Shown one piece after another: positions 32,163-35,120 of a DNA stretch of 47,378 bases. Numbering within the stretch: position 1 is the first letter of the stretch; every line of letters starts with the position of its first letter. The notes under the pieces were generated by a model that saw only the letters and a list, made by a program, of their open reading frames with translations, had not been told where the DNA came from and searched no databases. Both the position numbers and the translations under genes were made by a program. The stretch comes from Malaciobacter halophilus (lineage in GTDB: Bacteria; Campylobacterota; Campylobacteria; Campylobacterales; Arcobacteraceae). Location of the stretch: NCBI RefSeq assembly GCF_002837275.1, contig NZ_NXIF01000036.1:1-47378 (forward strand), read 5' to 3'.

Positions 32163-32213
32163 GCTATTTAAGAGATACTGTCTTAAAATTCCACATATTA
32201 AAAAGGAATGAAA

Positions 32214-34337
32214 ATGATAAAAGAAGTATTAAAAAGAGATGGAACAACCAAAGAGTTTCATAGTTTTAAAATTGAAGATGCAATCAAAAAAGCATTTAAA
32301 AGTGTAAATACAAAATATGATAAAACAATTTTTTTTAATGTATTAGAACTTTTAGAGCAAAAAAGAGTGATTGCAGTAGAAGATATTCAAGACTCAATAG
32401 AAAAAGAACTTTACAAAGCTAGATATTTTGAAGTAATGAAATCTTTTATGCTTTATAGACATATGCATAAAATGCAAAGAGAGCATGTTTTAGGGCTAGA
32501 TAAAGATACAACTTATATCAACTGTACTCAAACTATTCAAGAGTATATTAATAAAACTGATTGGAGAATTAATGCAAACTCTAATACAGGGTATTCTCAT
32601 GCGGGTTTAATTAATAATAGTGCAGGAAAAGTAATTGCAAACTATTGGCTAGATAAAATTTACTCAAAAGAAGAGGGGTACGCCCATAGAAATGCCGATT
32701 ATCATATTCATGACTTAGATTGCTTAAGTGGATATTGCGCGGGTTGGAGTTTAAGAGTATTATTAGATGAAGGTTTTAATGGTGTAAGAGGTAGAGTTGA
32801 GAGTAATGCCCCAAACCATTTTAGAGAAGCTTTAGGACAAATGGCAAACTTTTTAGGAATACTACAAAGTGAGTGGGCTGGTGCACAAGCATTTTCTTCT
32901 TTTGATACATATTTAGCACCTTATGTATTTAAAGATAAGCTATCTTTTTCAGAAGTTAAAAAAAATATTAGAAGTTTTATTTATAATTTGAATGTTCCTG
33001 CAAGATGGGGACAAAGTCCTTTTACAAATGTAACTATTGATTGGACTGTACCTGAAGATTTAAAAGATCAAATTCCAACAAAGAAGCAAGTACACCTTTT
33101 AAAAGATTTTTATGATGAAGACTTGTATGAAGCAATTAAACAAAAAGGTTATACAAGCTTTGAAGAGTTAACATATAAAGATTTCCAAAAACAGATGAAT
33201 ATGATAAATAAAGCATATTATGAAGTTATGACAGAAGGTGATAAAACAGGACAACCTTTTACCTTCCCAATTCCAACGGTAAATATTACTGAAGATTTTG
33301 ATTGGTATGGTGAAAATACTGATATATTATTTGAAAATAGTGCCAAAATTGGAAGTTCATATTTTCAAAATTTTATTGGTAGCCAATACATAAGAGATGA
33401 AAATGGAAATTTGGTTCCAAATGAAAAAGCTTATAAACCTGGGCATGTAAGAAGTATGTGTTGTAGATTGCAATTAGACTTAAGAGAACTTCTTAAAAGA
33501 GGTGGAGGTCTTTTTGGTAGTGCTGAAATGACTGGAAGTATAGGTGTAGTTACTATAAATATGGCAAGATTAGGGTATGTTTATAAAAATGACAAAGAGG
33601 GACTTTATGAAAGATTAGATGAGTTGATGCAACTTGCAAAATCTACATTAGAAAAGAAAAGAGAGTTTATACAAACACTATATGATAGAGGACTTTTCCC
33701 TTATACTAAAAGATATTTACATCATTTTAATAACCATTTTTCTACTATTGGGATTAATGGTGTAAATGAAATGATTAAAAACTTTTTTGATTTAAAAGAG
33801 GATATTTCATCTCAAACTGGTATGCAGTTTGCCCATGAAATTTTAGACCATATGAGAGAAAGAATGGTAGAGTTTCAAGAACAAACAGGAAATTTATATA
33901 ATTTAGAAGCTACACCAGCTGAAGGTACAACATATAGATTTGCAAAAGAAGATAAAAAGAGATTTAAAGATATTGTTCAAGCAGGGTTTGATAAAAATAT
34001 TTATTATACAAACTCTTCTCAATTACCAGCAGATTTTACAGATGATATTTTTGAAGCATTAGATTTACAAGATGAGTTACAATGCAAATATACAGGTGGA
34101 ACAGTACTTCACTTATATATGAGAGAAAGAGTAAGTTCAGCGGAAGCTTGTAGAAAGTTGATTAAAAATGTAATATCAAACTACAAGTTACCTTATATAA
34201 CAGTTACTCCAGTTTTCTCTGTATGTCCAACACATGGATATATAAGTGGAGAATTTGAGTATTGTCCAAAATGTGATGAAGAAATTTTAAAAAAGGAGTT
34301 AGAAGAATGGAAAGTTACAGAATACCAAAACATTTAG
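32214..34337 (+). CDS. nrdD: Anaerobic ribonucleoside-triphosphate reductase, catalytic part without glycyl-radical tail
   Basis: This class III reductase makes dNTPs under anoxia. An ATP-cone (KRDGTTKEFHSFKIEDA) lies at the N-terminus, followed by the catalytic region with YCAGWSLRVLL, RSMCCRLQLD and AEMTGSIGVVTINMARLG, and a C-terminal zinc ribbon (VCPTHGYIS and YCPKC). The start at ATG 32214 is preferred over ATG 32208, because AAAAGGA directly abuts the latter. The reading frame ends with an unusual tail, ELEEWKVTEYQNI, and lacks the RVxGY glycyl-radical motif that ends NrdD. That motif is in the overlapping gene at 34307. MCCR may indicate a thiol-dependent subtype (inference). Confidence 0.93.
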   Translation: MIKEVLKRDGTTKEFHSFKIEDAIKKAFKSVNTKYDKTIFFNVLELLEQKRVIAVEDIQDSIEKELYKARYFEVMKSFMLYRHMHKMQREHVLGLDKDTTYINCTQTIQEYINKTDWRINANSNTGYSHAGLINNSAGKVIANYWLDKIYSKEEGYAHRNADYHIHDLDCLSGYCAGWSLRVLLDEGFNGVRGRVESNAPNHFREALGQMANFLGILQSEWAGAQAFSSFDTYLAPYVFKDKLSFSEVKKNIRSFIYNLNVPARWGQSPFTNVTIDWTVPEDLKDQIPTKKQVHLLKDFYDEDLYEAIKQKGYTSFEELTYKDFQKQMNMINKAYYEVMTEGDKTGQPFTFPIPTVNITEDFDWYGENTDILFENSAKIGSSYFQNFIGSQYIRDENGNLVPNEKAYKPGHVRSMCCRLQLDLRELLKRGGGLFGSAEMTGSIGVVTINMARLGYVYKNDKEGLYERLDELMQLAKSTLEKKREFIQTLYDRGLFPYTKRYLHHFNNHFSTIGINGVNEMIKNFFDLKEDISSQTGMQFAHEILDHMRERMVEFQEQTGNLYNLEATPAEGTTYRFAKEDKKRFKDIVQAGFDKNIYYTNSSQLPADFTDDIFEALDLQDELQCKYTGGTVLHLYMRERVSSAEACRKLIKNVISNYKLPYITVTPVFSVCPTHGYISGEFEYCPKCDEEILKKELEEWKVTEYQNI
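34286..34298 (+). promoter_or_regulatory. Overlapping slippery heptamers and ribosome binding site at the nrdD split
   Basis: In the nrdD frame the codons read ATT TTA AAA AAG GAG. This contains T-TTA-AAA (34286-34292) and A-AAA-AAG (34289-34295); the latter is the heptamer used in E. coli dnaX for -1 frameshifting. A -1 slip here leads, without a stop, into the frame of the small radical-domain gene. AGGAG at 34294-34298 is also an ideal ribosome binding site for the ATG at 34307. Confidence 0.5.
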
Positions 34338-34468
34338 AGGATAAAAGAACAAAGTGTGTTGTTTACACAAGAGTAATGGGTTATCACAGACCAGTAGAAA
34401 GTTTTAATATAGGAAAAAAAGGTGAGCATAAACAAAGAGTTAAATTTATCGAAAAAAATAATATATGA
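34307..34468 (+). CDS. Separate glycyl-radical domain of NrdD (53 aa)
   Basis: This 53-residue protein contains KCVVYTRVMGYHRPVESFNIGKK, written here in parts: TRVMGYHRP and SFNIGKKGEHKQR. These match the very end of class III reductases, where RVxGY carries the radical glycine (here Gly25, codon at 34379) and a GKxxE segment follows. It starts inside nrdD in the -1 frame, with AGGAG eight bases before its ATG, and overlaps the nrdG start by 47 bases. It could be a separate subunit that supplies the radical in trans, or be reached by frameshifting. NrdG would install the radical. Confidence 0.8.
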   Translation: MESYRIPKHLEDKRTKCVVYTRVMGYHRPVESFNIGKKGEHKQRVKFIEKNNI

Positions 34469-35120
34469 TATTACTCGGTTTACAACTTTAGATTATAAAG
34501 ACAATTTATCTTGTATTGTATGGTTTATATCATGCAATATGAGATGTCAATACTGTTATAATAGTGATATTGTTTTATCTAAAGAAGGAAATTATGAGAT
34601 TAAAGAATTATTTAGTTTTTTAGAGAAAAGAGTAGGGCTTTTAGATGCTGTTGTTTTAAGTGGTGGTGAAGCTACTATGCATAATCTTGAGCCAATTTGT
34701 AAACAAATTAAATCAATGGGATTTAAAATTAAACTTGATACAAATGGAACAAATCAAAAACTTTTAAAAACTTTAATAGACAATGGGTATATTGATTATA
34801 TTGCATTGGATTTTAAAGCACCTAAAAATAAGTTTGAAGATATAACTAAAACAAAACAGTATGAAAAGTTTATAGCTAGTTTAGAGTATTTAATCAAAAC
34901 AAATTTTGATTTTGAAACTAGAGTGACTTTACATGAAGATTTACTAGATGAAAATGATATAAATGAAATAATTGATGTTTTAATAGACAAAGGCTACAAT
35001 AATAGCCTTTATATCCAAAATTTTTTAGATGTTCCAAACTTTGGAAATTTAAGTGAGTCTAAAAAATATATAAACAAAGATTTAATAAGTGATAAATTAA
35101 ATATTGTTTGGAGAAATTAA
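34422..35120 (+). CDS. nrdG: Anaerobic ribonucleotide reductase activase (radical SAM)
   Basis: In this 232-residue protein, the 4Fe-4S/SAM motif is in CNMRCQYCYN (Cys 38, 42, 45). LSGGEATMH and KLDTNGTN follow, as in glycyl-radical activating enzymes. It generates the glycyl radical on the NrdD system. The start is probably GTG at 34422 with AGGA seven bases upstream, placing it inside the small radical-domain gene; this start is less certain than the rest. Its 3' end overlaps a convergent regulator gene by 24 bases. Confidence 0.92.
   Translation: MSINKELNLSKKIIYDITRFTTLDYKDNLSCIVWFISCNMRCQYCYNSDIVLSKEGNYEIKELFSFLEKRVGLLDAVVLSGGEATMHNLEPICKQIKSMGFKIKLDTNGTNQKLLKTLIDNGYIDYIALDFKAPKNKFEDITKTKQYEKFIASLEYLIKTNFDFETRVTLHEDLLDENDINEIIDVLIDKGYNNSLYIQNFLDVPNFGNLSESKKYINKDLISDKLNIVWRN

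Follow-up and report, generated by a model that had tools for sequence, protein, structure and literature searches.

A class III ribonucleotide reductase of Malaciobacter halophilus with a probable separate glycyl radical subunit

The class III ribonucleotide reductase (RNR) genes of Malaciobacter halophilus very probably encode a working two-chain enzyme, in which the radical glycine is carried not by the large chain, NrdD, but by a separate 53-residue subunit, here called Grd. Gene anatomy, conservation, co-occurrence, independent location and natural fusions are observed; there is no protein-level or biochemical evidence, and reduction and radical formation are inferred. A class III RNR with its radical segment as a separate gene product had been proposed in a first-pass annotation of the window, that is, the whole stretch of 47,378 nucleotides analysed here (contig NZ_NXIF01000036.1), and the proposal has survived every test made. 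Judged from sequence, conservation of the split extends across the phylum and past its limits. Genomes and loci are referred to below by our own G and L numbers.

Results

Gene organisation

The features on which the analysis rests all lie on the forward strand of the window.

32208..34337, +, nrdD, the large chain, 709 aa, stop included; no radical-glycine motif
aa 6-88 of nrdD, +, ATP cone (PF03477, E 7.6e-18)
aa 124-691 of nrdD, +, NRDD barrel (PF13597, E 2.6e-162)
33459..33464, +, finger-loop Cys-Cys, C418 C419 of MCCRLQ, candidate thiyl radical site; invariant in both alignments
34224..34274, +, zinc ribbon CPTH...CPKC (C673-C689), on the large chain; conserved in alignments
34275..34337, +, C-terminal tail of nrdD beyond the zinc ribbon; differs from relative to relative
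34289..34295, +, AAAAAAG, correctly phased candidate heptamer for -1 slippage, read here as Shine-Dalgarno context
34294..34298, +, Shine-Dalgarno AGGAG of grd, 8 nt upstream of the ATG at 34307
34307..34468, +, grd, 53-aa glycyl radical subunit, -1 frame relative to nrdD, stop included
34379..34381, +, codon of the predicted radical glycine G25 (RVMGY) of grd; invariant in 14/14 aligned rows
34422..35120, +, nrdG, radical-SAM activase, GTG start within grd (TIGR02495 NrdG2, E 8.3e-55)

The nrdD and grd reading frames jointly cover the NRDD and NrdD (TIGR02487) family models. The Pfam NRDD match of nrdD stops at model position 529 of 562, and the 53-aa frame matches positions 531-562 (E 1.9e-7); TIGR02487 gives the same two-part picture, with positions 549-580 on the small frame. 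The break falls between the last cysteine pair of the zinc ribbon (CPKC) and C-x-V-Y-T-R-V-M-G-Y. The marks of a class III RNR are thus met for the ATP cone, the barrel with its finger-loop cysteine, the zinc ribbon and the radical-SAM activase, but not for a radical glycine on the same chain, since NRDD 531-562 lies on the small frame. The roles of C418 and C419 as thiyl radical site and of the CPTH...CPKC ribbon in zinc binding are assumed from family knowledge, and there are no metal-binding data. An SCCR motif of the class III finger loop is described in the accessible part of PMC4493059.

The large chain ends in SVCPTHGYISGEFEYCPKCDEEILKKELEEWKVTEYQNI followed by the stop codon. The first-pass annotation had described a short unrelated tail past the zinc ribbon, an RVxGY segment on a 53-residue gene that starts inside nrdD in the -1 frame and has an AGGAG eight bases upstream of its ATG, and an nrdG overlapping that gene, and all of this is confirmed. 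The range that it gave, 34286-34468, contains the gene but begins 21 nt ahead of the ATG, and its 'detached glycyl-radical domain' is detached only in its radical-loop half, the zinc-ribbon half remaining on the large chain. RefSeq annotates the small gene as "nrdD". The closest named relative found, Arcobacter sp. CECT 8985, has an NrdD of 89% identity.

One NrdD match was found in the genome of the window. A search of the same genome for NrdD-type radical motifs returned a single one, grd, and no second, which bears out the earlier view of the small gene as the only radical domain. Against Pfam the Grd protein matched no family besides NRDD at E<=1, and a PDB profile search with the small protein alone gave no match at E<=1.

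Distribution in the phylum

The motif is present in 84 of 104 family genomes and in 186 of 397 phylum genomes, which rules out a chance open reading frame. The large chain, at a threshold of E<=1e-30, is present in 188 of the 397. Both parts occur together in 185, the large part alone in three, the small part alone in one (G424) and neither in 208 (Fisher p 3.9e-110, uncorrected for kinship). As for the large-only genomes, the NrdD matches of G053 and G406 reach a contig end and the NrdD of G222 is truncated. G070, counted among the 208, has a more distant, fused NrdD missed at this threshold; distant NrdDs of this type were looked for in 10 genomes only. Among the matches listed in the family and phylum searches, the motif-bearing open frames are 34-90 aa long. 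The 42 phylum genomes whose best match was too weak for listing were searched again separately, and in three of them (G165, G237, G336) long fused frames of 746, 922 and 648 aa were found, all remaining rows being of at most 129 aa. More than one copy of the small gene is found in 17 of the 186 genomes, of which only G317 has two NrdD matches. In five genomes of the same genus (30 codons, ten pairs) dN is 0-0.06 and dS 0.27-3.5, with one pair undefined.

The proposal would have fallen had all close relatives possessed one continuous nrdD. The outcome was the opposite: the same split was looked for in their orthologues and found, and the three fused cases among the 186 positive genomes are nested among split ones. 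Natural fusions joined at the break occur in these three and on plasmids of Actinomyces, Acidiphilium and Acidithiobacillus. A rule that all relatives are split was dropped, given the three fused genomes and the fused NrdD of G070. In a thinned large-chain tree of 75 rows, the starred clade of 33 rows has 28 split, 3 fused and 2 without the motif, and the other 42 rows comprise 36 fused, 2 split, 1 without the motif and 3 outgroup rows. In a tree of 58 rows the three fused Campylobacterota chains fall inside a starred clade of 39 rows, together with 36 split rows. The two trees need 6 and 7 changes of the split/fused label; both are quick trees with SH-aLRT support only and long-branch warnings. 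We take the split to be old and the nested fused chains to be later re-fusions, which if so are natural hints that the two parts work together. A single origin of the split is not claimed, in view of the 6 and 7 label changes, the weak trees and a locus, L267, that stands outside the main clade. At L267:6352-6800 there is a separate-looking second split, with the motif YTRIVGYYRAVQNWN in another frame, 137 nt past the NrdD core.

Distribution beyond the phylum

A three-gene set, annotated as 'ribonucleoside triphosphate reductase', a small 'nrdD' and an activase, is carried on plasmid records of Sulfuricurvum (Campylobacterota), Cupriavidus necator H16, Sulfuricystis, Azospira, Aquabacterium, Shinella and Bradyrhizobium ottawaense. 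A plasmid of Paracoccus ferrooxidans has the same split, its small gene being called hypothetical, and a single fused chain is found in Actinomyces oris, Acidiphilium multivorum and Acidithiobacillus ferrooxidans. Relatives of the small protein are few in the phage collection (1 record) and in the plasmid collection (28 records). Of 138 loci classified (L141-L278), 53 have only the small motif, 44 are fused, 35 are split and 6 lack the motif. The small gene was the query for L141-L209 and the large gene that for L210-L278, and the class counts are not frequencies. On this evidence the split reaches Proteobacteria and phages.

For the enzyme of C. necator, a paper of 1999 reportedly proposed G650 of NrdD as the radical glycine. 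In the RefSeq large chain of H16 pHG1 (L195), residue 650 falls within the zinc ribbon, as the G of CPTHGY, and not in a radical-glycine motif, a position that bears on the reported assignment. NrdDG of C. necator is reported to be essential for complete denitrification in the accessible part of PMC2864759, which for strain CH34 lists Rmet_5137 and Rmet_5139, skipping 5138. Since C. necator has the same split, with H16_RS32675 as the small gene of H16, the split enzyme probably works in vivo. On the Allochromatium vinosum plasmid pALVIN01 (L198) a lone small 'nrdD' stands just after a CHAP-domain gene, and the genes listed for the 7-kb stretch include neither nrdD nor nrdG.

Spacing of the two genes and alternative readings

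We examined 140 genome loci, two of which are the window itself and some of which may represent the same genome twice; 138 hold both parts, and L048 and L095 end 22 and 476 nt past the NrdD match. The grd ATG precedes the nrdD stop in 85 of the 138 (48 in frame relation 1, 37 in frame relation 2) and lies beyond it in 49, none having been found by the script in 4. An overlap of the 4-nt type is seen at 30 loci. The gap from nrdD to grd ranges from about -31 to +852 nt and falls in frames 0, 1 and 2 (a value of -49 at L122, where the script picked a far ATG, was left out); gaps of 781-852 nt are found at L031, L034, L039, L070, L078 and L113. Whatever the gap or frame, an SD-like motif stands ahead of the grd start in 133 of the 134 loci with a script-found ATG, and the ATG lies 15-17 codons ahead of the Cys of C-x-V-Y-T-R in 133 of the 138. 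The nrdG start is close to the grd end in all 77 genome loci containing nrdG. In seven genomes of one genus code (G289, G266, G296, G351, G307, G436, G179) grd-nrdG is at least 58 kb from nrdD, a distance that stands even for circular contigs, and nrdD still ends without a radical motif. At L034, L039, L070 and L078 two further open reading frames lie between nrdD and grd, one of them with GCPTISFTASVFTEELK.

These arrangements bear on the possibility that a programmed -1 frameshift at A AAA AAG (34289-34295) makes a fused NrdD-Grd, of which the small reading frame is merely the tail. The phase of the heptamer is right, and from 34280 through the end of grd the -1 frame has no stop, which would allow some frameshift fusion in the window. 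As an account of the gene, however, we consider it very unlikely: the frame relation is not kept, even by G081 of the same genus as the window (L005), overlaps occurring in both other frames; many grd ATGs lie past the nrdD stop; grd has its own Shine-Dalgarno and ATG; and no downstream stimulatory RNA structure was found over the 81 nt searched (z-score 0.47). The seven unlinked genomes and the varied gaps and frames therefore exclude frameshifting or stop read-through as a general route. The same observations practically rule out an assembly error or recent pseudogene, that is, a base missed in the A6 run (34289-34294) that broke a continuous nrdD. There is indeed a homopolymer at the junction, and the first-pass annotation had named such an error as grounds for refutation, but the split recurs across family and phylum, one-contig genomes included, RefSeq plasmid records annotate two genes, and the grd frames, gaps and unlinked loci of relatives exclude it.

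It remains to be considered whether Grd is a repair part of the GrcA type, the large chain receiving its radical from another protein. This would resemble the logic of YfiD, as given in the accessible part of PMC8683613, and extra copies as well as lone viral copies of the small gene do exist. The large chain, however, lacks a radical motif, and the genome search gave no second motif of the NrdD type; the small protein must then be the working part, and we regard a pure repair role as very unlikely. Our preferred reading remains a two-chain enzyme with Grd as its radical subunit.

Structure model

The folded chain was that of L077, a natural stretch in which one TAA, read as Q, separates in-frame nrdD and grd; the alignment had 36 rows, fused relatives included. 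The model (mean pLDDT 81.9, pTM 0.78) has a strand at 722-728, directly before the predicted radical Gly (729). Within the radical segment (705-754) block pLDDT is 45-82; the blocks around the predicted radical Gly have 56 and 50, and the loop 730-737 after it is below 50. Solved class III chains gave Z 26.8-30.9 by VIA-align, the best being 8p2s_B, the NrdD of P. copri (Z 30.9, 545 residues at 3.1 A), with model range 76-752 set against chain 85-735 (model length 754; the ranges give the first and last aligned residue only). As the joined chain and the fused rows favour the placing, the docking of the radical segment is partly built into the model, and with the low pLDDT at the Gly we treat it as a consistency check only.

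Discussion

Mechanism and known systems

In the two-chain enzyme that we propose, nrdD would supply the ATP cone, barrel, finger-loop cysteine and zinc ribbon, and the separately translated grd the radical glycine and C-terminal tail. The Shine-Dalgarno and ATG of grd lie inside the end of nrdD, so that translation is probably coupled. Grd would dock by the zinc ribbon, its RVMGY loop reaching the finger-loop cysteine; NrdG would make the glycyl radical on the docked Grd, and the radical would pass to the finger-loop cysteine, the route that other class III enzymes use. Three of these steps are inferences: docking, activation of Grd itself and exchange after oxygen damage. Glycyl radical enzymes are cleaved by oxygen at their radical Gly. 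In the present enzyme it would cut Grd only, and a 53-residue subunit could be cheaply replaced: if this is true, the loss to oxygen is a cartridge of 50 residues, the enzyme of 750 residues being spared. Radical formation on YfiD requires the presence of pyruvate formate-lyase (PFL), according to the available text of PMC8683613, and by analogy a similar safeguard, with a radical formed only when the partner is present, may apply to Grd.

The solved NrdD enzymes of P. copri, T. maritima and T4 likewise have an ATP cone, barrel, finger-loop Cys, zinc ribbon and adjoining NrdG2 activase, but carry loop and tail in one chain, whereas here these form a separate polypeptide. GrcA/YfiD and T4 Y06I, spare parts of PFL, are like Grd small free radical-glycine proteins, and Grd would act in trans, a possibility to which its unlinked loci and lone viral copies point; T4 Y06I is a phage version of the YfiD-type part (PMC8683613, accessible portion). 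Unlike them, Grd matches NRDD and not the PFL-type family and would serve an RNR. Moreover, GrcA/YfiD replaces a segment that its target enzyme owns, whereas the NrdD here has none, which would make Grd obligatory and not for repair only. In the split class II RNR, NrdJa+NrdJb, a C-terminal functional domain also lies on a separate gene, but that enzyme uses cobalamin and the detached part is a Cys-rich domain, not a radical carrier (PMC5704485, PMC9669993, both seen in part). Phage nrdD genes split by introns, inteins and homing endonucleases also have their coding region in pieces, going by a partial text of PMC3653736; those are interrupted genes, whereas grd is a conserved independent gene without an inserted element.

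In earlier papers, insofar as their text was available, the radical domain forms the C-terminal part of the one chain (PMC9531940, PMC9669993, PMC11226230), and no split class III case was found in the available portions of PMC4390871, PMC3019208, PMC4493059 and PMC2795772. Among the open-access papers searched, none was found to describe a class III radical domain on a chain of its own; subscription papers and RNRdb were outside the search. Already known are the RefSeq annotation of the genes, the split class II enzymes and the phage nrdD genes split by introns or inteins. Class III RNR has been described as one chain with its own glycyl radical; here the carrier would be separate, obligatory and perhaps replaceable, and it is kept wherever this NrdD is found in most of the phylum and also in several Proteobacteria. 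Spare parts have been validated for PFL only, and the authors ask about other glycyl radical enzymes (PMC8683613, in the part available). The present case would offer a natural and widespread RNR in which to test that question, and its radical subunit of 50 residues could be produced, labelled or mutated independently of the large chain.

Viral loci

A viral scan with the small protein yielded 53 loci, all with open frames of at most 166 aa. It used two fixed peptide patterns, and copies without them were not counted; the conservation of the pattern letters is partly selection, and several loci are near copies. What is new is that 48 of 50 viral records searched whole have the small gene without an NrdD core, the core being found in two (L158, L180); among the records of at least 25 kb, 29 of 30 had none. 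L146, one of the 48, is below the cut-off for the small gene itself. A weak extra match in G472 (E 6.5e-4) covers positions 503-529 only. Viral records may be fragments, and a missing NrdD is no proof for the virus. Sampled neighbours include a major head protein and endolysin (L146), a neck or tail-completion protein (L148), a DNA polymerase (L150), lysozyme-type and tail proteins (L154), endolysins (L165, L169) and QueD (L156); a PHROGs scan of 20 neighbour proteins matched 15, of which 4 had hits to unknown-function families alone, and left 5 without a match. The extra small-gene copy in G179 (L296) adjoins a holin, and that in G307 (L291) encodes a protein identical to the IMG/VR locus L142.

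The small gene without NrdD in viral records, near head, holin or endolysin genes in the loci sampled, suggests that phages may re-arm the host enzyme. We lean, with some reserve, towards a branch of class III RNR in which the radical domain is an exchangeable subunit, as an adaptation to microaerobic life, with phages and prophages inserting their own into the host enzyme. If this is true, a phage radical subunit would keep dNTP synthesis running in infection, as an RNR counterpart of T4 Y06I. It would also predict a role for the phage proteins matching phrog_4132 ('unknown function'), which is matched by 8 of the 9 small proteins scanned, near positions 115-155 of 179; the protein of the ANMV-1 virus is the sole exception among the nine. 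The ANMV-1 locus (L201, KP703175) encodes a 144-aa archaeal virus protein with a C-terminal NrdD radical domain and no barrel.

In five IMG/VR loci (L181, L184, L185, L189, L190) TGA encodes the Gly that follows the radical loop (GKKxEF), in keeping with code 25 (TGA=Gly). These look like phages carrying a lone radical subunit, and their hosts are presumably of the Gracilibacteria/Absconditabacteria type. Other viral NrdD genes (L264, L267, L270-L274, L277, L278) contain an interruption of about 1 kb, in many cases around model position 392-410 and hence close to the finger loop, which suggests putative inteins or introns.
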